Shown: positions 345-36,800 of the stretch, in pieces
Numbering within the stretch: position 1 is the stretch's first letter
Layout of the letters: each line of letters opens with the position of its first letter
Origin: Prostheceraeus crozeri
Taxonomy: Eukaryota > Platyhelminthes > Polycladida > Euryleptidae
Assembly (NCBI GenBank): GCA_907163375.1
Contig: CAJQUW010003469.1
Span: forward strand, 248,001 to 312,000
Length of the DNA: 64,000 nt
Direction of reading: 5' to 3'
Translations under genes and position numbers: made by a program
Notes under the pieces: model-generated
What the model was told of the DNA's origin: nothing
What the model saw: the letters and a program-made list of their open reading frames with translations, nothing else
The model's database searches: none

Positions 345-1277
345 TCACTGATTAGGTAACATATCAATAACGGAAGGATTTACAGCATCTTTGGGGAATA
401 AATCATGGGCTTTAGGCCGCATAAGCCGATAAGATAAGGATATTGTTGCCTCAGCAACTCCAGCAATGTCACCGATTTCTTTCTTTTCCTTTTTGTCACC
501 AAATGCCTGAGCTGCCATATAAATAGCCGCAGCAGCTATTGAAACAGGACTTCGTCCGGCAACGAGTTCAATATCAGTTGCCTTCTTAGCAATTTCATTT
601 GCAGCTTTACGTACCGCAGTAGACAATCCGAGATTTGAACAAAATCTTGTCATGAAATCTTCCACTGTAACACTTTGAACATTTGTTTCAAGAGTCTTCA
701 AAATCTTCTTGAACACTTTTCCTATTTCTTTCTTAGATACCCGAGAGACTGCACATACTTCCTTGAATGTTCTGGCAACTCCTTCTTGTCTGGAAGCCAT
801 ATATAGACAAGCAGAAGCTACCGCATCATTACTGCGACCTCTGAGATTTTTTGTTTTGTGAACTTGTTTGAAAATAGCATTTGCTTGATCAGAAACTGAT
901 CTGGGAAGATTAAGTCGTTCAGCCATTTGACCTATTTCGGAAAATGCTTGAATAAGTGTTCTGTCGGAACTGCTAAGATTCCGCTTGTTTTTGTACATAG
1001 GTTTTCCATTATCGTCGTACTGCATAGTATCTCTTGACGTGGATATCATAGTAGATAGTTCACCACCCTCCAACAGCGGATTTTCAGCAGAACCAACACG
1101 AGACATATCTTTGGCATTTTTATCATTGCTGAAAGTCCTCCATTCGGAACCTACGTCGATTACTCTATCGGCTACTACTAGTCCACAGTCTTCACAAACT
1201 AAATCTCCAGCATGATAGTCTTCTATGAGCTTGGCATCTGGATGGTAGCGACAGGTTACTTTGCTGGCAAGACTCAT
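345..1277 (-). CDS. GTF2B: Transcription initiation factor IIB, intronless
   Basis: General RNA polymerase II factor that bridges TBP-DNA and the polymerase in the nucleus. The 310-residue protein is uninterrupted and near the usual metazoan length (about 316). In order: N-terminal zinc ribbon with C9, H12, C28 and C31; B-reader/linker with [14 protein letters not shown] around 39-52; two cyclin-like repeats, recognisable from [20 protein letters not shown] and [20 protein letters not shown]; and the C-terminal [19 protein letters not shown] segment. The start is the first ATG and lies just before the ribbon, as in the family. Odd points: there are no introns, although EDC4 next door has many, and two residues that contact the BRE in human TFIIB (V283, R286) are Ala277 and Ser280 here. 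It could be the only TFIIB gene or a retrocopy kept under selection. Identity as a TFIIB is certain; its status among paralogues is not. Confidence 0.97.
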
Positions 1278-1305
1278 ATTTCACAAATGAAACTCAAGTG
1301 CGATA

Positions 1306-1314
1306 TTTTATATA
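1306..1314 (-). promoter_or_regulatory. Candidate TATA box for TFIIB
   Basis: TATATAAAA on the minus strand, about 29-37 bases upstream of the TFIIB ATG. If functional, transcription would start almost at the ATG, giving a very short 5' UTR. In AT-rich DNA this match may be chance. Confidence 0.3.
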
Positions 1315-1317
1315 TCC

Positions 1318-2207
1318 TCTTAAAAGTACATCTGCATGATTTGTTTGTTGCATCAGTCTATCCGTAAATATAGCTCATTTTTTAACTTTTGGTCGGACCA
1401 TGAAGTAAAATGCCTTCATTTATTTTCCTATTGCAGAAAATAAGCAGCATATCTTAATTTTTGTTTTGGAATACTCAGCAATATGTTCCATGACAGCATT
1501 TTGAGAGGAAGGAAGAAGTGGATTGAAAGCTAGCGATAGATTTGAATATCTTGGAAGGAGGAATATAGTCACAAAAGAAAAATTTGTTTTTTCAAGGATA
1601 TTTCGGTAACAAGGATCTTCACAGCTAAATTGACTGCTAGATTTCTTGATTTCGTCATTTAAATCTACAGTGTGCAATGTCAAATCGGAATAGATTGCAT
1701 AGATTACATAATTTTGGAATGTGATATTTGATTTAATTTGAATATTGAATATGAATTCGCATTCCAAAATAATAGACGCCAGTCAGCTGTATTTTGCTTG
1801 TTGAAAAATTGTTTAACTATTCACGTTATCTAAAAAATTCACTCATCTGAGCACGCTGTTATTGATTTCTCAAGAAATGTATCAGTATAAGTATTGCTTT
1901 CATTCATTGAGACGTATTTCATTAACACAAGCATGCCGGGAGATATGATAGCTGAGAATACCGACGATTTGTCTGAATGACACATCTTGAATTAGTGCGA
2001 TGTATCTCCACAACTGGAAATAGTGCAGGACAGGCAGATGTATATTATTGTTTCATATGTAACTGGGATAGCTCGTGTGTATGAGATCTGCAATTTCGAT
2101 ATTCACTACATTCCATTGAAAATTGCACCCATATGCATGTATCGGAAAGTTTTGATGTATAGAATGTCATTGTTTTTTGATCTGACTAGGGGTTGATCAT
2201 TAATTAT
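1318..2207. other. Intergenic, nothing recognised
   Basis: Contains a 115-codon minus-strand open frame (1420-1767) with no family features I recognise. No paired terminal repeats were seen. Confidence 0.4.
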
Positions 2208-2333
2208 AATTCCACCGACAGAAAATTGAGCCGATTTAATTATTTTTGCCGGCAGAATATTCTTCCGACTTCATGAACGACGGTAAAAAACCGTCGAATG
2301 TTTAATCGGTTTGGTTTTCTGCCGGCAGAATTT
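2208..2333. mobile_element. Palindromic MITE
   Basis: The outer arms are imperfect inverted repeats: AATTCCACCGACAGAAAA at the left against AATTCTGCCGGCAGAAAA read from the right, continuing to CCGATTTAA/CCGATTAAA. A second, perfect hairpin sits in the centre at 2278-2296 (CGACGG, six A, CCGTCG). It is non-coding and would fold almost end to end. The superfamily is not assignable. Confidence 0.6.
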
Positions 2334-3092
2334 CATTCAATGAACATCCTCAATAGCTATTCTTATCTGACTCGGTGTTAAACAGCAACTCAATACTACG
2401 AAAGTACCCTTGTTGTAATATTTCCGGTGAAGACAGTGCATGACATGAATTTGCCTGAATTCGCAGATCACTGTGTCTTCAGACAATATATTCATTAATT
2501 TCTCTATTTGGACTGACAATTGCACTATGTTGTCCAACTCCAGTAGTATCAGGCTCAGCATATAAAGTTCGTCCCAACAGGAGCATGTCCATCTCACGCG
2601 TTTGAATTTGTTGCATAAGTAAGAAAAAAATGTCTGCTGTTTGTGATATTTTGTTGGCAATTCCATTGAAAAGGGAATTTGGTAATCTGTAAAACAAACA
2701 CAATCCAAAACGTGTGTGACTTGTTTGCGTTTTGTTGTTCACCGAGAACAGGAAGAGGTAAACTAGGATTATCGCTACCTTCTCCATTGTGAAGATGATT
2801 TGGATAAGCACAAAGTCATCACGCACATCATTCGACTCAACAGTTGGAGGTCTATCATCAATCGCGGTTTCGATCTAGTAGAAGACATTCATTTCTCGAT
2901 ACTAGACAAATAATTTTGCGTTGAGTACTTTTACTCCTTGTGAAGGGAAAAGATTCAATTCATTTAGCAACTCATTTGCTGAGCAATCGTCAACGTTCTA
3001 GGAAGTTCACACAGTATTCGATTTTTTGCATTTGTCCGAATAAACGTTAAAAAATGGTTTCAAGCATCACTTTCGAAGTATGATGCATGTTT
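2334..3092. other. Intergenic, nothing recognised
   Basis: Two overlapping minus-strand open frames (2337-2826) show no known motifs. No repeat boundaries were found. Confidence 0.35.
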
Positions 3093-4349: not shown

Positions 4350-5290
4350 TAGATTTTTTTATTCGCATCATTTTGAAGCAGAGATTATGTCATGGCTCGT
4401 GCGCAATAGTTTAGAGTTCCACCATGCAGCGTTTGCTTGCCTTGTGAAAGTGAAGTATCAGGAATTTCACTACATCGTGTTTATCGTCAAGTGTAAGCGG
4501 ACATTTCACATTCAGTTTTGTACTCGAGTTCCTAAGTCTATTACGACTTCTGACTTATCCATCAGCATGTGTAAATGGATTCAGCTTGCAACATTTCTTC
4601 TTTGATTTCTCGTCATCTTTGAACCTTTCGCTATCTTTACATCTCGTTGAATGTCGTTTTTCCAAGACGTTTCACCTGCTTTCATCTCTAAAAGCGTGAG
4701 ACCGGGTATTCGTCGATTATCTTTGTTTCGACGATTGTGAATAACTCATAATAAGTTATCAGTCACGGATTTGAAACATGCTTTTATCTTCTGAAAGAAC
4801 ACTTGATTGATTTGTAGTACCGTTGCTACGTGTGCTTTTGCGTAAGTCGCTTTAGAAACTACTATGTCATTTGCCAATTCGTTGCTTCTGTCCTGATTTC
4901 TGATTGGTCGTTCCTCCAAAGTTACGAAACCTTTAACCCATTAGAGACGGAATTCTTTATTCAATGAAAATAGATCTTCTGTTATCTACGTACCCTACAT
5001 CGATCGCTAAGCATGTTTATAGGAAGACTCGTTGGAATTGTGCTTTTGTGGGCCAACAAAGAACACGTCGCAAGCTCGACGGTTAGGAGTGAGGTCGAAT
5101 AACTCAGACAAGCTGGTTGTTCCATGTTGATCAACGGACAGACTAGAATGGGTAAATTACAATCATGCAATAACTTAGTCATTCGAGTTTTTGGATAGGT
5201 GGTTTTCTGTTGTGAAAGATAGTCTGTTTCTGCCTTGAAATATACTCGTAGCAGTAGGCCTAATTGGTTGAAAACTCAAAAATGTGCATT
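4350..5290. other. Intergenic, nothing recognised
   Basis: Short open frames only; no motif or repeat pair that I can support. Confidence 0.35.
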
Positions 5291-5299
5291 TTTTAGTTC

Positions 5300-5832
5300 G
5301 AAAATATATATTTTTCCTTTTCAATATGACCTGCTGAGTATGGTAAAGCTCAAAACACGCAACATTGCATTTTTAGATCGAATTTCCGATCTTCCTTTGC
5401 ACATCGGGCACAGACACCCTTTCACATTCTTGTCAATTGGATAATGCTCGATTTTGTCGAATCGTACAGCTTTAGGCCTTCACTTTATGATGACGAAACT
5501 CTACAAGGACGACCAACTGCCGTGCGAAGATCAGCAATTCGGTTCAGAGTATACCACAACAAAACAAGCAAATTCCAGTAAAGTGATTTTTTGATCCCAA
5601 AGATCGTGGTAGTATCGCCATGCATTATTCATCAAAGCATTTAGGATCCAAGAGATAGTGGATAGCACCACTTTCGTGTACGAAAACGGATGCGGTAAGT
5701 CGAGACAGCCTGGTTAAATAGGTCAATTCCACTCATTCTCTTATTGTATTCAGTTATGAGCTCAGGAATCCGATTCTGTAGCCTATTTGCCAAACATTCG
5801 ACGACTTGACTGAGAATGAGTCTATGTTTCAT
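5300..5832 (-). pseudogene. piggyBac-like transposase fragment
   Basis: The minus strand encodes a piece with ITEYNKRMSGIDLFNQAVST and YRIRFRTRKWCYPL, the conserved block near the last catalytic Asp of piggyBac DDD transposases. In a neighbouring frame WILNALMNNAWRYYHDLW follows, as expected for the next helix. Further down (about 5300-5440) CPMCKGRSE may be the start of the cysteine-rich tail. Frameshifts separate the pieces and the N-terminal half is missing. No TTAA-flanked ends were located. A dead remnant. Confidence 0.7.
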
Positions 5833-5870
5833 CTTCGTGTAGCTATCTCGATGAATGAAAAAGTAGAACG

Positions 5871-6697
5871 AAATCGTGCACAGTTATAGATAAAGTCTTT
5901 TACATGAGGATGAACAAAGATTATCAACGTCTCATTTGAATTATGGATATTTGAATAGACTTATCACACAGAAAACCATCGGAGTATGCGCGAAAGGCCA
6001 ACTTTTTTAATCACATCATCAAAACATAATAATGATCTTAGCGTCGAAATGGATATCCGCCAATCTTGTTTTCAACATAGACATCTGATGGTGGTTACAA
6101 TGAGGTGAAATCATGGCGTGCAGTTTGGAAAATCAGAAAACAGCACTATTTGAACACAGAATACTTCTTTCGAAGGTCAATATTCTATCAATTTAGTATT
6201 ACCATTTCAAGCTCACACCTAGACGTCGCGTTTGCGACGTGATGCAAAATAATAAATGTATGTGTGAAACAGCAAGATATTTCTCAAAGTTATCTTTCCC
6301 AAATTTCCTTGTGAGTATCCTTTAGAATAATATTCAATGAAAAAGTCAAATTACTACCTGCATCATTTTTTAAAGTTCCGCATCTACATGACACTCAAAA
6401 TAGGACCATAAAATGTTTAGTATACTACTTATGAAAACCAAGCAAATTTGAAATCATAGCTCTTGAATGTTCGGAGGGGTGGAGCAAGAATCCGGATCTG
6501 TGGTTAGAATGTATTGGGGGGGCGTGATTCTGGCGTATATGCACCTTATATGCTGGAAGATGAGAGGGTGGGGGGGAGGAGGTGGGGGTTGGGGGATATT
6601 TATAAGATATGCATTTAATAGCAGGTAAGGGTTGTGGTTTGGGATGTGTCCAAAATCATTTTAATAATCACAGCTAGATGTTGTTTAAGAGTAGTGC
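5871..6697. other. Intergenic; G-rich drift at the right end
   Basis: Nothing recognised from 5871 to about 6460. From there the plus strand becomes increasingly G-rich with runs of up to seven G, and C becomes rare before vanishing at 6698. Confidence 0.5.
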
Positions 6698-7149
6698 AAG
6701 AATAAGGTGAGATAAAGGGTGTGTGGGAGGGTGAGGTTAGAATTATATAGTTGAGGGTAATTGTGAGGTTTGATTGGGTGGGGGGTTTGGAGAATTGAGG
6801 GAGGGTGTTGTGGTATTGATAATATGTTTGGGGGAAGAGTAGTGTTTGATGTAAGGAATTGTGAATTTGGGGAATTGGGAGAGGAAGTATATTAGAATTT
6901 GGAGTTGGTTTTAGTGGGGAGGGGTAGGGGTTGAGTGAGGTGGGGGTATATTGTAGTTTATTGAAGTATGTATGTATTTATATGTATGATATAGGGTTGG
7001 TAGGGGAGTGTGAGGAAGGGGTTTTATTATGTTTTAAGGTGTAGTTTTGGGGGAGGATGAGTTTGAGGGTGAGTTGGTATTAGTATTGTGGTTGTTAAGA
7101 TTTAAGTAATATTATAGATGGGGGATTTAGGGAAGTGGTGGATGAGTAA
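6698..7149. other. 452-base tract without any C
   Basis: I read every base: no C occurs on the plus strand between the C at 6697 and the C at 7150. G makes up about 40% (170 of 420 in 6721-7140, hand count). There is no tandem period and no long open frame. The left side fades in gradually, while the right side ends abruptly. This may be a real GT-rich strand-asymmetric block or a low-quality sequence joined at a gap. Confidence 0.9.
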
Positions 7150-7186
7150 CATCGGTTTTAAATTTATATTTGATGTTTATGATTCT

Positions 7187-7480
7187 CTATGTCGCCACAA
7201 ATGGAGGATCAATTGCCTGTAATACATTTCTTTTTCTCATTCCTAAATGTGGAGAAAATGAGTATGCTGCAATCTTCAGATCATCGGATTCAGAAATACA
7301 CTGCTGTCCAAGAACTTTTGCTTCTTTACTCAAGTCCTTCTCATCAGACAATGTTGAAGTGTCGAGGTCCATTTTCCGAAGTTAATGGAATATCTTGCAT
7401 TTTTCTTAACTTCAGAAGCAGAAGATTGATCTGTCATGCTATCAAGGCTTCCACGCAAATGTTCCCGGAGATCTTACTCA
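7187..7480 (-). pseudogene. Possible BEL/Pao-type LTR retrotransposon pol scrap
   Basis: The minus frame with KVLGQQCISESDDLK followed by MRKRNVLQAIDPPF resembles the stretch after the reverse transcriptase in BEL/Pao polyproteins (K-LG--W--ESD, then KR-VL--I---DP). In a shifted frame, NFGKWTSTLQH may be the preceding block. Short, frameshifted, no LTRs seen. Weak assignment. Confidence 0.35.
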
Positions 7481-7639
7481 CACTTCCACGATTCGACGAT
7501 TAAGCTGTACACACGACTATGCTTCACGACTATATTTACAAGGATGGTGGTAAAGTCTAGCCGAAAGGAAGACGAGTCCATCTACATTCCATGTAGTCTC
7601 TTAATATGAAGTTTCTACATCAATACAGAAGAAGCTAGG

Positions 7640-9563
7640 AGAATCTCTGTCTGTATTCCTTGGTTTGATCTGAAGGAAGGCCTTTTCAACATCTGCAGTC
7701 AAGTAAAAGGGAAGCGTCGAATTCTAAATAGTATACCAAGCAATGCAGTTAACATGTTTTGGCCGGAAAGGAGCACATCATTAAATGAGAGGCCATATCT
7801 ATACGTTAGCAGATGCATTAAGCACGGATCGCACATTGGTCGTGGATTTACTTCACCTCAACAGACAAAGCCGGCTTCTTTGCAAGGAGTTTGAGAAGAA
7901 GTCATCTTTGGACGATGGAGGTAGAATTCCACCTCCAATGCGCGCGCGCACTGATGAGACAGTCCGAAACGTCAGAAAGATCATCGCAGGTCTCGATAGC
8001 TCTAAGTCTAATGGACCAGATGGCATCCCGGTTTCGGTCTTCAAGCATCTCTTACCTGAGCTTTCTCCACTTTTATCCAAACTGTTCAGGAGATGTGTAT
8101 CCACCGGTGAGTTTCCCTCTTGTTGGAAAGTAGCTTCCGTGGTTCAAGTTCCAAAGAAAGGTTCTGACTCATCTCTTCCATCTAGTTACCGTCCTGCTTC
8201 CAATTGCTGGCATGATTTTTGAAGCAGTGATTAACCAACATATTGTTGACTTTCTTGAAACTGAGAACCTTCTTTCAGGAGAACAGTATGACTTCAGGCA
8301 TTCTCGATCAACTGTAGATCCTCTTTCATATGTCACTGAACATGTGAATCGTGTCCTTGACAGACAATGTGAGACAATATCAGTTGCCGTGGATATTTCC
8401 AAGGCTCTCGATAAAGTCTGTCATCAAGGACACCTCAGGAAGCTTGAGTCCTGTGGAGTTGCTGATCAACTGTACAAACCGGCAGATATCTGCGTCTTAG
8501 ATGTCCAAAAGTCTTCCACCAAGGTTGTCAATGCAGGAGTTCCTCAAGGATCAATTTTGGGACCCACTCTTTTTCTCCTATACATCAACGACCTCCCAGA
8601 CTGCCTAGTGAGTAAAATGGTAATGTATGCAGATGACACGACACTCCTCTATTCCAATGAGCGACTTGCTAAGAACACTCAGCAGCGTCAGCAGTTATGC
8701 GACCTTCTTAATGAAGACTTACGCAGGGTCTCAGAATGGGGCGACAATCGGCTTGTTTCCTTCAATCCTTCAAAAACTCAGAGCATTCTGCACTCACGAC
8801 TTAAAAGAAATTACGATAATTATATCATTAAGATGTCAGATAATGGGAATCAGAGAACAAGATTCCATCTCCTTCCTTGGATTGGCTGTTACGAAAGACT
8901 TGTCATGGAAACCGTACATCCAGTCAATCAGCAAGCAGGTAGTCTCTACACACACTGGATACACTGGTAGTCTCTATTAGGCCAGCAGCTGTCTTCCACC
9001 ACAGACTGTCTGCTATCTCTACAAGTCCACTATTCGTCCTCTGATGGAGCACTGCTGTCAACTGTGGGCCGGCGCCCCACAAACCCATCTCAACCTCCTT
9101 GAACGGGTTGAGAAACGTGTCAAGAATCTTATGGGTGAAACACCTTCTAGCAAGTTGCAACCGCTCTCCGTCAGGCGGGATGTTGCTTCACTCAGCCTCT
9201 TCTGTAGGTACTATTTCGGTAGAAGCAGCTCTGAAGTAAATGAGTGCCCAAACCTAAGATCTTCTCCATAAGCACACGCAGAGCTTAGAGCGCTCACATG
9301 CTGTGATACGCTTCAAAATTTTTTTTTGTTCGCGCGGCACAGCTTTGGAATCAGCTTCCTCAGACCACTTTCCCTGACCAATACAATCTTAATACTTTCA
9401 AGAGGCGTGCGAACAGGTTTCTGATGGGCCCGCTTAATCAGATTAGAAGATGTGTTTTTTTCCTTTTATTTATTTGAAATAATACAATTTGCTACTTTTT
9501 GTTGAGTAGCGCCTAGCTTCGTTCATAGCTGTGATAGGGATGAAAATTCTGTAAAAAAAAAAA
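7640..9563 (+). pseudogene. LINE (non-LTR) reverse transcriptase remnant
   Basis: Three plus-strand frames together give a reverse transcriptase typical of Jockey/CR1-like LINEs: SKSNGPDGIPVSVF and PSCWKVASVVQVPKKG (7785-8222), then after a frameshift near 8210 GVPQGSILGPTLFLLYINDL and the catalytic YADDT (about 8622-8640). A second shift near 8850 leads to ISFLGLAVTKDLSWKPYI and then STIRPLMEHCCQLWAGAPQ. The final KRRANRF block follows at about 9400. An A-run at 9552-9563 may be the 3' tail. No endonuclease is present, so it is 5'-truncated and inactive. Confidence 0.85.
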
Positions 9564-14935: not shown

Positions 14936-16988
14936 CGTGGTCCTTTGTGTTGAATCCAAAATGTCCCGGCACTTAAACTACTTGCAGATAACCTGATGTC
15001 TATAACGGATACTGATTCAGAAGTAAATTTAGGTCTTTAAGGCATGAGACACAATATGGTTCGCCGAAATATTTTTTTCCGGTCAGTTTTCTATGTTTTA
15101 AAAAATATTTTATACATATTTCTAACATGAATTTCTGTATTTTCAGAATTGAGGTCGAGGATCCGATTTGTCTTATTGCTTATAGTTAGATTGATTTTGA
15201 TTTGTACCCTTATTTGGACGGATATCTTTGGCCATGAATTTTATCTGCACGTCCTTTTGTTATTTAGCTTCATGTGTTACGGATATCAATCAGTGAAGTT
15301 CATTCAGCCACGCATTCATTAAGAAAATCCGTGTCAATCGACTGGTTCTTTGTTCTATCAGTTTTCATGATGGATGGTGACAAGCGTGTCTTCAGGTCGA
15401 ATATCGCTAGGTGTGATTACGGGGGGGGGGTGGGGGGGGGGGGGGGGGGGGGGATACCTCCTGATCCGCAGGCCTTCGCTTTAATGCTGAGTGATTTTTT
15501 CTAAAGCGAATTACAGCCTCCGGACACCATGGAAGCCAAAGCTCCATCGAGAACTACTGCTTCTATTTCTGGTATACAGCGAATTTAAACAGCTCGGACA
15601 GACAATGTTGGAGCAAGATTTTTCTCAACTGTTGGTCGGCTTCGCCGCAGGATGATTCGGGAGGAAGGAGAAATCGTCTCGTCAGTGCGATGAAGTGATT
15701 ACAGCCACACAGAAAGGGATAACCATGCCAGTGAGTATGTCGAAGAGGGAGTTGCGAATCAGTTTATCCCCTCTGTCATGGAATCATCGAAAGACTTGGA
15801 TTATCGCAAAGAAACTGGCATTCCACGTTTCGTACCGAAGTTTCTGTCACCTGACACATGAAGGAGAAACAGTTTCTTCTGGCGCGATCTCGTGGACACA
15901 GTCAAATTTGGCATCTCCTTCGAAATGCACGGAGATCAAGTTTCTGAACTGCATCCCTATACAGAGGATTGAAAAACCCCCACCCCCCCCCCCCCAAAAA
16001 CACCTTTAAGTTTGTATCTGCATCTCAAGTAAGCAGAGCGAGGGAATCTGCAGAGTGGTCGACCAATCAGGCGAGTCTGCCCCTTTGAAACAAATTGCGA
16101 TCCGGAACTATCACAATCTCCCGGTCGTTGATGCTGACGAGTCTTTTGGAACGCTTCGGGAATCCAACTGGTTGACCTTTGCGGATATAAAGGAGTAAGA
16201 ATCCAATAGCGAATATTTTTATTCAATACATCTGTTATCTGAAGCGAGGAAGAAAATATAAGGAAAGGCCACGAAAAACCATTCACCTCTACTTGCTTCA
16301 TGCACCAATGCCTCCGATTCACACCTCGCATATGGAGACTAAAACCATTTGTTGCCCTTAACGAGAAACGGATTTTCCAACTACTTGAGCCATCCTCATG
16401 CCTTCCTTAATCTCACCCTGACTTGGCCCAAGTTGACTTCTATCTGTTTAGATTCCACAAAAGCATCTTCCGTGGACACCATTTTGAATCGCCACGTTGA
16501 ACTGCGGGATGCAGTTAAGCGTTTTTGATAAATCTTTGACACCGAAATTTTTTTCATAAAGCTTTTTGTGAAATGAGGACTTCGTTGGCAAAAGCTGACG
16601 AATGCTAACGGCTCATACATTGAACAGTAAAACTGTTTTCTGGAAAAACATTTGTTTTTCCGTTACCTTCATTAGTCACGGTTATTAGTGATAGCTTAAT
16701 CGTCAAGTTATCTAAATTTATTTTTTTTATACTTTTTTTTTTTTTTTTTTTTTTATTTTTTAAACAACAACAAAAACACAAAAAATTCTAAATCGTTAGA
16801 TTTCTAGGAAAATCTTGAAATTCAGCAAAATGTTTGAAAATTGAAAAATAGAAAACTGAACCGGAAAAATTTCGGCGACCATATTTCTCATGCCCTTAAA
16901 GACCTAATTTTACATCTGAAGTTGTATTCGTTTATCACAGAATATCTGCAAGTAGTTTAGTCGGGACATTTTGGATCACCACCACCGT
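14936..16988 (+). mobile_element. Mariner-like element with about 160-bp TIRs
   Basis: The left arm (14936-15105) and right arm (about 16835-16988) are inverted copies sharing ATCCAAAATGTCCCG, AAACTACTTGCAGATA, TTAGGTCTTTAAGG and CCGGT(T)CAGTTTTC, flanked by TA on both sides. Near the right end the plus strand encodes a decayed mariner/Tc1 transposase tail: HPDLAQVDFYLFRFHKSI, then FRGHHFESP and KAFCEMRTSLAKA, with stops and frameshifts. It also carries a G-run (15421-15453) and a C-run near 15980. Inactive. It abuts the next mariner. Confidence 0.8.
16730..16760. repeat. Poly-T stretch
   Basis: Nearly pure T-run inside the mariner-like element, just internal to its right arm. Confidence 0.8.
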
Positions 16989-19737: not shown

Positions 19738-19788
19738 GTATACCCAAAGTTAGGAGGACCGAGTTCTGAGTTTTTCCTCCCAACTTTG

Positions 19789-19795
<7 letters not shown>
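19738..19795. repeat. Near-perfect hairpin
   Basis: TATACCCAAAGTTAGGAGGA on the left pairs with TCCTCCCAACTTTGGGTATA on the right with one mismatch around an 18-bp loop. TA repeats follow directly. Confidence 0.8.

Positions 19796-19874
<79 letters not shown>
19790..19874. repeat. (TA)n then (TAGA)n microsatellite
   Basis: About 30 bp of TA followed by about 13 units of TAGA up to 19874. Confidence 0.95.
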
Positions 19875-19875
<1 letters not shown>

Positions 19876-20458
19876 GAAATGTGCGCTCCTGCCCCACCGA
19901 ATTGTACTCTCCTGCCCCACTTGTACACTCCTGCCCCACGGACGAATATGAAATGTACGCCCCTGCCCCACAATTGTACGCTCCTGCCCCCATGTGCACC
20001 CCTGCCCCACTGACTCTCCTGCCCCACGTATGAGCTTTTGCGGAATATGATTGTGCATTGATATGTAATGTTGTGAAAGAAGTGCTATGGATGTCAACAC
20101 CTCCAAATGCCTGGTCCGACGATTGCTGTAGGCCCTGGTCCCTTCAATTTTCGTATTTAGAGTTAGCTTTTGCGGAATATGATTGTGCTGTGATATGTAC
20201 TGATATGAATGAAGATATATGACAGTCAGAGCACCTCCAAATGCCTGGTCCAACGATTGCTGTAGGCCCTCAATTTTCGAATTTAGAGTTAGCTTTTGCG
20301 GAATATGATTGTGCATTGATATGTACTGATGTGAATGATTAAGATATATGACAGTCAGAGCACCTCCAAATGCCTGGTCCGACGATTGCTGTAGGCCCTG
20401 GTCCCTTCATGTACAAGTGGGGCAGGAGAGTACAATTCTCGGTGGGGCAGGAGTTATA
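19873..20458. mobile_element. Palindromic element with three core repeats
   Basis: The left block holds seven spaced CCTGCCCCAC words (19887-20027). The right end holds two inverted copies (GTGGGGCAGGAG), and the order CCTGCCCCACCGA, TTGTACTCTCCTGCCCCAC mirrors on both sides. Between them are three direct repeats of about 130 bp starting near 20033, 20166 and 20293 (GCTTTTGCGGAATATGATTG... TGCTGTAGGCCCT). Next to a GATA microsatellite, the layout recalls Helentron-derived elements (HINE/pearl type), but true Helentrons lack TIRs, so the class stays open. Confidence 0.6.
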
Positions 20459-33800: not shown

Positions 33801-36800
33801 GCAAAAAATTTCCGTAAAATTTCTATTTTGATGTCACAAGATGATGGATTTAATTGATGAAAATGCTGGTATGCAAGTCTTATTTTACTATTTAAATGTT
33901 CTAAAATTCGCTTCCTCATAGTGCACTGAGTTTCACCAATATAAGTCTGTTGACACTTGTTGCAAGTGATGTCGAAAGCTTTCCAATATGTTTTTATTGA
34001 CCTCTTCTTTTTCCTTAAAATAATTTAGGTGAACAATGGTGAACCATATGTATTAATTGTTGAGTGTACAGACCGTAAAATTAGGTATAACATCCTTGAA
34101 ATCGGCCGTTGGTGTGGCGATACTTTGACGGTTTTCCTGTGCTTTAATCACTCGGAAAAATCTGTTTTCATCACGATTTTTACGTGCAGTATTCAATGTT
34201 CATAAGTCATAAAATCCTGCTTATGTGACCTCAGAAATATCGTAGACTTCTCTGAATTTGAACCCAACTGACTGGTGTGGTGGTGAGGGTTTAATCCTGC
34301 CAATTGACACAGTCGCATGTAAGATGTTGCAGCTCAGTTGGTTGAGCACAGGTCTAGTTAACCTGGGTCGTAGTTTCGAATCCTGCCAGCCGCACAAATT
34401 TTTGCATGGCAATTTGATCTATCTTCTTTCATTTCACTCTATTGTTAATAGAAAATATCGTGAATGCGAGTTGCATTGACATACTCTTTTTATAAAAGAC
34501 TCTGCCTAATGTAAATATTGATGTTTTGGAAGCATGAGTCAAAGAGACAATGTGTGCACTAAGTAAGTATGTCTTTTGTTGGGTATGTCTTTGTATTTTT
34601 AGATATGAAACCCACAGAATAATGCGAAATACATATCACCATTCGAATTTGTAAAGATAGAAAAATTCAATATTACATGAAAAGACATTATTTGACGTTC
34701 AAATTTCAAATTGCCATTGATAGTACAGTAGAATTCGCATATATCGGCGCCTCAAGGGACAGACGAAAACCGCCGATATACGCGAACCGCCGATATATGC
34801 GAACTCCCTGAATTTTGAAGTTTTGTGAAATCTACACTGAGCTCTGAGATCGTGCCATGCATCATACAATGTATATACGTGTATTGACTCATGAATTATT
34901 GCGTTGCTATACTTGAATACATGTACATATTGACTTATTGTCCAACATGTACAGTACATGTACATGTACATGTAATTGTGTCTATGTAATCAATAGATAT
35001 CTAAAAATTGTGCCTTTCTGAACTGATGCTTGCAACGTAAGTATCGCAAACCGGATATCACTATGTTTGTCAAAAACTGAGTATGCTTTTTGAATCAAGA
35101 AGATTGAAGCTTCTTCATGCCTACATCCTTACCTGCTATATGAAGCACAAAACAAAGAAGAGTATGCATAAATCAAGACAATCTAAGTCAATCAAGATGC
35201 TGCTAAGAGTCACGTGCAGGCGAAACCGTAGAGATGGATGGGGTGACGAGCCGCTTTCTGTCTAGAGAGAGGACATGCATCGAACTCAGCAATGTTTTCG
35301 ACGGTAGCTTGTGCTCCTTTGATGACGCAACAGTCACTAAGTCAGGTCTGACAATAGCATCGTAGGTGAAGGCGTTAACAATGCAATCATCACGTCGAAT
35401 GAAAGACTAATTATGTGAGAATTATCAGTGAGATACAGTGGCAAGCCTACTTATCTTTCCTCGGCTGCTAGATTCTACAATTTTGATCAAACCCCCAAAC
35501 ATGATCGAGATGAATTGTAGAAGATCTAAATTTTCACATGCCACTAGAATAGTTAGAATCGGATAGTCCTAACAGAATCTACAGCCATCCGCGTCCACAT
35601 ATACTGTCATTCTAGGTGACTCTTCTAGGCAAAACACATCGCTTGAGGATTTCCAGGAAATCCGCCGTTATAAACGAATTTTTTTCTGTCAGGGAGAGCG
35701 AAAATGCGCCGATATAGGCGAATCGCCGATATAAGCGAACTCGATTATATGGAAAAGATGGGAAATTCTGCCGGGACAAAAAGAATCCGCCGATATATGC
35801 GAATTCTACTGTACTAAAATTAACGCAGAATATTATACTTATAACACCGCATAGATATGCTTGAGTAAAAGTTTGCAGAAATACTTCAGTTATAATCAGG
35901 GCAATTTTTTTTGACTTGTCAAAAAAATGGGTTAGGTCAAAAAAAGTCAAAATTTATGATTGTAAGATTTTAGCTAAAAGAAGAACAGTTTTAATCGCGA
36001 TTGCGACCGTCCCTTTATCTAACACCGGCTGGTTTGCCTTTTCTAGCACCTGTTCACGAGTTCGCATCACCACTAGAACTATTTAACCTCTGTACTGAAG
36101 ATGCCCAAAGTGCGTGTTAATCTCAACAACAAAGCTCATCTGTACGCAAGGGAAACGCCGAATGAGTTTCGCGTGAATCCTAACGATGACCTCTTTTGTG
36201 TATTTTGCTGCCAAATAGTGAGCTGCGACAAGCGCTTCAGGGTGGAGAGTCACCAATCATCGGCGAAGCACAAAAAACAGCTCTTGGCGAAGGCGGAGGA
36301 GAAGAAACCCCAACAAACCTTCTTTCCAATTTTGAAGAAAGATTTCAAGAGCAAGTTGGTTGAGGCCTTCCTGTCGGCGGACATTCCTCTTCATAAGCTG
36401 CAAAACCCAAAGATCCGACAGCTCCTCACTGATCTCGGGCAGCCTGTTCCGTCAGAGAGCGCTTGTCGAGCGCACTTGGACTCGTTAGCTGAAGAACAAA
36501 TGAATCGGTTCAAGGAGCTTCTCCACGGCAAAAACGTCTTCATCGTTGTTGATGAAAGTGAAGTTTGCGGTAGCAAATATCTCAACATTCTCATCGGCGA
36601 CTCAAAGATGCCAGAGACTACGTACGTCGTGGACTGCAGCGTGGTCGAGACTGTTAATCAGCAAGTGGTTGTAGCGAAAATCGACGATGCGCTCAAGAGG
36701 ATGGACATCCAAAGAAATAATTTCGTTCTGCTACTGTCCGATGCGGCCAGATACATGACTTCAAGCACCGCGACGCTGAAACTCCTATATCCGCAGCTGT

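Follow-up and report, generated by a model that had tools for sequence, protein, structure and literature searches.

A 452-base run without cytosine inside a flatworm contig is very probably an assembly artefact

The window analysed here is a stretch of 64,000 nucleotides, positions 248001-312000 of contig C2879 (334,509 bases), in the 2.05 Gb, 14,165-contig assembly of the polyclad flatworm Prostheceraeus crozeri (GCA_907163375.1). On its minus strand lies a TFIIB-like gene, a single intronless open frame of 311 codons (345-1280). Elsewhere the window holds 33 bases that are all G except one T (15421-15453), a tandem array at 20033-20399, close to an ATAG microsatellite, in which a 126-base unit occurs 2.8 times, and a plus-strand tRNA match slightly over the Rfam gathering score (34323-34394; 34.1 versus 29 bits), which could be a tRNA-derived repeat. 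The features around the cytosine-poor stretch, all given on the plus strand, are as follows.

5013-6471, plus strand: interspersed repeat that breaks off at 6471, some 120 bases short of the end common to other copies
6472-6697, plus strand: beginning of the disturbed stretch, poor in C (21 in all) and rich in G, from C positions and alignments to the repeat
6698-7149, plus strand: C-free run of random-like A, G and T, probable sequencing noise, from composition, neighbour tests, genome search and a G-motif scan
7150-7552, plus strand: sequence of ordinary appearance following the probable noise, no further copy detected
7785-8970, plus strand: repetitive stretch with two open frames that overlap, searched against Pfam

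The second of these frames (8134-8970) matches the reverse transcriptase family RVT_1, while no Pfam family match was found for the first (7785-8222) at E 0.001.

The first-pass annotation had reported 452 consecutive bases without C, and this observation is exact and was confirmed in the sequence: the longest C-free run of the window spans exactly 6698-7149 and contains 114 A, 181 G and 157 T. Its estimates that C makes up a fifth of the window and G about 40% of the run were likewise accurate (12066 of 64000 bases, or 19%, and 181 of 452, or 40%). The second-longest C-free run measures 99 nt and lies over an ATAG microsatellite (19785-19883). A first-order Markov model built on the window predicts some 10^-38 runs like that at 6698-7149 in 64 kb, which excludes chance, as the annotation had held. 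We also scanned 285,484 bases (200,000 from the same contig, the 64,000 of the window and 21,484 from seven other loci) for stretches of 120 nt or more from which any one base is absent, and 6698-7149 was the sole case; no runs of N were found in these bases. The composition of the run is unexpected of this genome. A strong excess of G over C occurs at L012 (3801-4650) and L014 (8901-9450), and the reverse at L024 (4001-4700), with both bases kept in all three; these stretches are perhaps coding.

The left border of the disturbed stretch falls inside a repeat, in the interior of C2879 and with no marked join. The repeat occupies 5013-6471, and the longest of its other copies show 79 to 88% similarity over 5900-6471. 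When the query was extended to 7200, all nine other copies matched to 6471 and no further. Eight copies aligned past this point continue together for about 120 bases, most of them reaching a shared end; as the copy in the window does not continue with them, the repeat breaks off where the odd composition starts. Mismatches against four copies stayed flat towards 6471 (6 to 17% in the last bin), with few inserted G, and two of the four, which hardly differ between themselves, are about 24 bases short in the 6300-6399 bin. The loss of C is gradual, with 21 C across 6472-6697 and none in 6698-7149, and C returns at 7150. The annotation had described a gradual onset from about 6460 and an end at 7150; the gradual onset and the end stand, whereas the start is better placed at 6472, and the disturbed stretch at 6472-7149, because the flanking repeat can be matched only as far as 6471. 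Alignments of 5001-8500 with seven loci gave no resumption of the repeat after 7150, internal inverted pieces aside. No other copy of 7150-7552 was found in searches that skip simple repeats and very common words, and five other matches start at 7553.

Within the C-free run, the succession of A, G and T is consistent with each letter being independent of its neighbour (chi-square 3.8, 4 df, p 0.43), and matches at lags of 1-15 lay between -0.9 and 2.0 sd of shuffles. The numbers of distinct 3-, 5- and 6-mers were at shuffle level, and that of distinct 4-mers was 2.4 sd below it. Dinucleotide ratios (TA 1.14, TG 0.88) were opposite in trend to those of the surroundings with C read as G (0.73 and 1.14). 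As a control, 480 ordinary 400-base pieces of the contig were put through a like test: 43% gave p > 0.05 and about 9% gave p > 0.4, so that random-like neighbours are no rarity and the neighbour test is not decisive alone. A search of the 2.05 Gb genome with the run returned the self match only, at E up to 10. The stretch 6472-7149 contains no tandem array, only two short two-copy repeats; with neither an array nor a periodic unit there, a tandem or microsatellite origin of the run was rejected.

Sequence lacking one or more bases recurs at other places in the assembly. Of 20 contig starts sampled (400 bases each), two, those of C8585 and C10706, consist of such base-missing junk. C8585 (locus L067) lacks G throughout its first 400 bases; a mixed piece follows, and from 701 to at least 3000, the point to which it was read, G and T are the only letters. 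Over 701-3000 the share of G drops from 82-90% to 44%. The first 2.2 kb or so of C10706 (locus L068, 1 to about 2260) are T with an occasional single G, after which ordinary sequence sets in. Neither start is plausible genome, which shows that the assembly retains junk without some bases. Both resemble the C-free run in extending over hundreds to thousands of bases without one to two or nearly three of the four bases, and the C10706 junk adjoins ordinary sequence, as does the run in the window. They differ from it in lying at contig starts, in using fewer letters and, for C8585, in drifting composition, whereas the run in the window lies in the interior of its contig and the proportions of its three bases stay steady. 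Four of six junk pieces tested from contig starts depart from independence (p < 0.05). At the right ends of 18 of the 20 contigs (400 bases each) no such junk was found, the longest base-free runs there being 50 and 52 bases.

The first-pass annotation had offered, as one of two readings, that the block is genuine DNA, rich in G and T, asymmetric between strands and liable to form G-quadruplexes or R-loops; we now regard this as highly improbable. G does account for 40% of one strand, and the C-free run holds 22 runs of at least three G against 17.3 in shuffles, a number that 112 of 2000 shuffles reach. Nevertheless, canonical G-quadruplex motifs (four runs of at least three G, loops of 1-7) cover 0 bases of 6698-7149; the single 30-base motif in the wider 6472-7149 is not beyond shuffles, 264 of 2000 covering as much, and a G-quadruplex region was rejected on these grounds. 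The claim of such a block also fares poorly against the random-like letters, the want of a second copy in the genome, a start exactly where the repeat breaks off, and the base-missing junk at other contig starts. Other candidates for a real element were discarded in turn: structured RNA (no Rfam match in 6300-7300 at E up to 1), DNA structure (the single-strand fold of 6473-7149 is weak, at -13.8 kcal/mol over 677 bases, z -2.19, with 1 of 20 shuffles as good) and coding sequence (the forward frames of the run contain 14, 15 and 12 stops). A scan for bacterial promoters and terminators, a method unsuited to an animal genome, gave five promoter-like hits versus 4.0 in shuffles and no terminator-like ones. 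We found nothing to support a function for the C-free run.

Two further explanations would keep the stretch as real DNA. Removal of C from one strand by mutation, through deamination-like change of C to T or another single change, would account for one base being absent from all 452 positions, but we give it very little credence. The annotation had argued against simple C-to-T conversion as the source of the composition, and the comparison bears this out: G and T are 0.40 and 0.35 in the run versus 0.19 and 0.51 in converted window pieces. None of 127 window pieces fits the C-to-T or the C-to-A model as poorly as the tract does, so that both deaminated DNA and a C-to-A change were rejected. 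C-to-G change fits the composition (G 0.40 versus 0.38, sd 0.055, once the C of window pieces is read as G), but its dinucleotides give a poor, though admissible, fit, the tract falling in the low tail at 5.5 to 10% depending on strand and order; we know of no process that turns every C into G. An insertion of untemplated or foreign DNA at the broken transposon end would agree with the sharp borders at 6472 and 7150 and with the random-like letters of the C-free run. This, too, we hold to be extremely improbable: the repeat does not resume beyond 7150, and a phage origin was rejected after a search of 50,697 phage records, at E 1e-5, gave nothing. To our knowledge no enzyme adds hundreds of C-free bases, and the chance that a real, single-copy, strand-asymmetric C-free insertion was made at the transposon end by a process adding only A, G and T appears equally slight.

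The C-free stretch is thus very probably, judging from its sequence and that of the rest of the assembly, an artefact, that is, low-quality read output rather than real DNA. The second reading in the first-pass annotation, an untrimmed low-quality read tail built into the assembly, is well supported in its low-quality read sequence by the junk at two of 20 contig starts; that this was a read tail at a join is our inference. Some observations count against an artefact. The tract sits well inside its contig, at about 254.7 kb of 334.5 kb, whereas the other junk lies at contig starts, has fewer letters and departs from independence in most pieces tested, and none of the 18 right ends carries base-missing junk. 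The commonness of random-like neighbours in ordinary pieces and the low number of distinct 4-mers weigh on the same side.

Assemblies commonly break at repeats, and a join is plausible at a repeat such as the one in which 6472-7149 begins. The artefact most likely arose where the assembly crosses, or was joined at, this repeat, with 6472-7149 being low-quality read output left uncorrected. In such a scheme the failing read would have gained extra G calls first and then lost C entirely, true or consensus sequence would resume at 7150, and the noise would have been kept as nothing corrected the spot. We infer that one unsupported read was the source of 6472-7149, that the signal for one base was lost in it, and that the site is a join or a filled gap.

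Alignment of the first bases of the disturbed stretch with the missing end of the repeat suggests that 6472-6697 may carry the decayed end of the flanking repeat under the noise. In a gap-tolerant alignment of the first 81 bases with the best copy (L003), 22 of 29 inserted letters were G and 15 of 20 deleted letters were A, a pattern that base composition alone favours. For the first 90 bases, the consensus score under the first scoring was reached by none of 1000 dinucleotide-shuffled tails and by 5 of 1000 shuffled targets; under two further scorings the corresponding counts were 3 and 25, and 0 and 1. When genomic targets were used with the first scoring, 440 of 20000 scored as well as the repeat end, as did 22 of 5288 matched for composition. 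A profile of eight copies gave the 90-base tail a score of 16.4. Shuffling the tail reached this score in 2 of 1000 trials, and shuffling the columns in 31 of 1000; the median for ordinary 90-mers, whose A+T content is higher, was 15.1, and six later pieces of the disturbed stretch scored 0.4 to 10.5. Copies L002 and L005 gave no signal against the first 90 bases. Several scorings and lengths were used, and because significance is confined to some of their combinations, the hidden repeat end is graded as suggestive.

Highly erroneous regions of long reads, repaired by 'patching' in MARVEL, are described in PMC7671305. They are like 6472-7149 in that wrong sequence lies within otherwise usable reads and is able to break or enter an assembly; they differ in that the passages concerned do not describe the loss of one base, whereas the run in the window is without C. 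Among the titles and opening parts of abstracts in the literature searched, we found no account of C-free sequencing noise.

Base-missing junk, up to kilobases long, stands at the start of some contigs in this assembly and probably at one place within a contig, C2879. Scans for compositional oddities, G-quadruplexes or R-loops would take such junk for biology, and a filter for long complex runs without one base would catch it.
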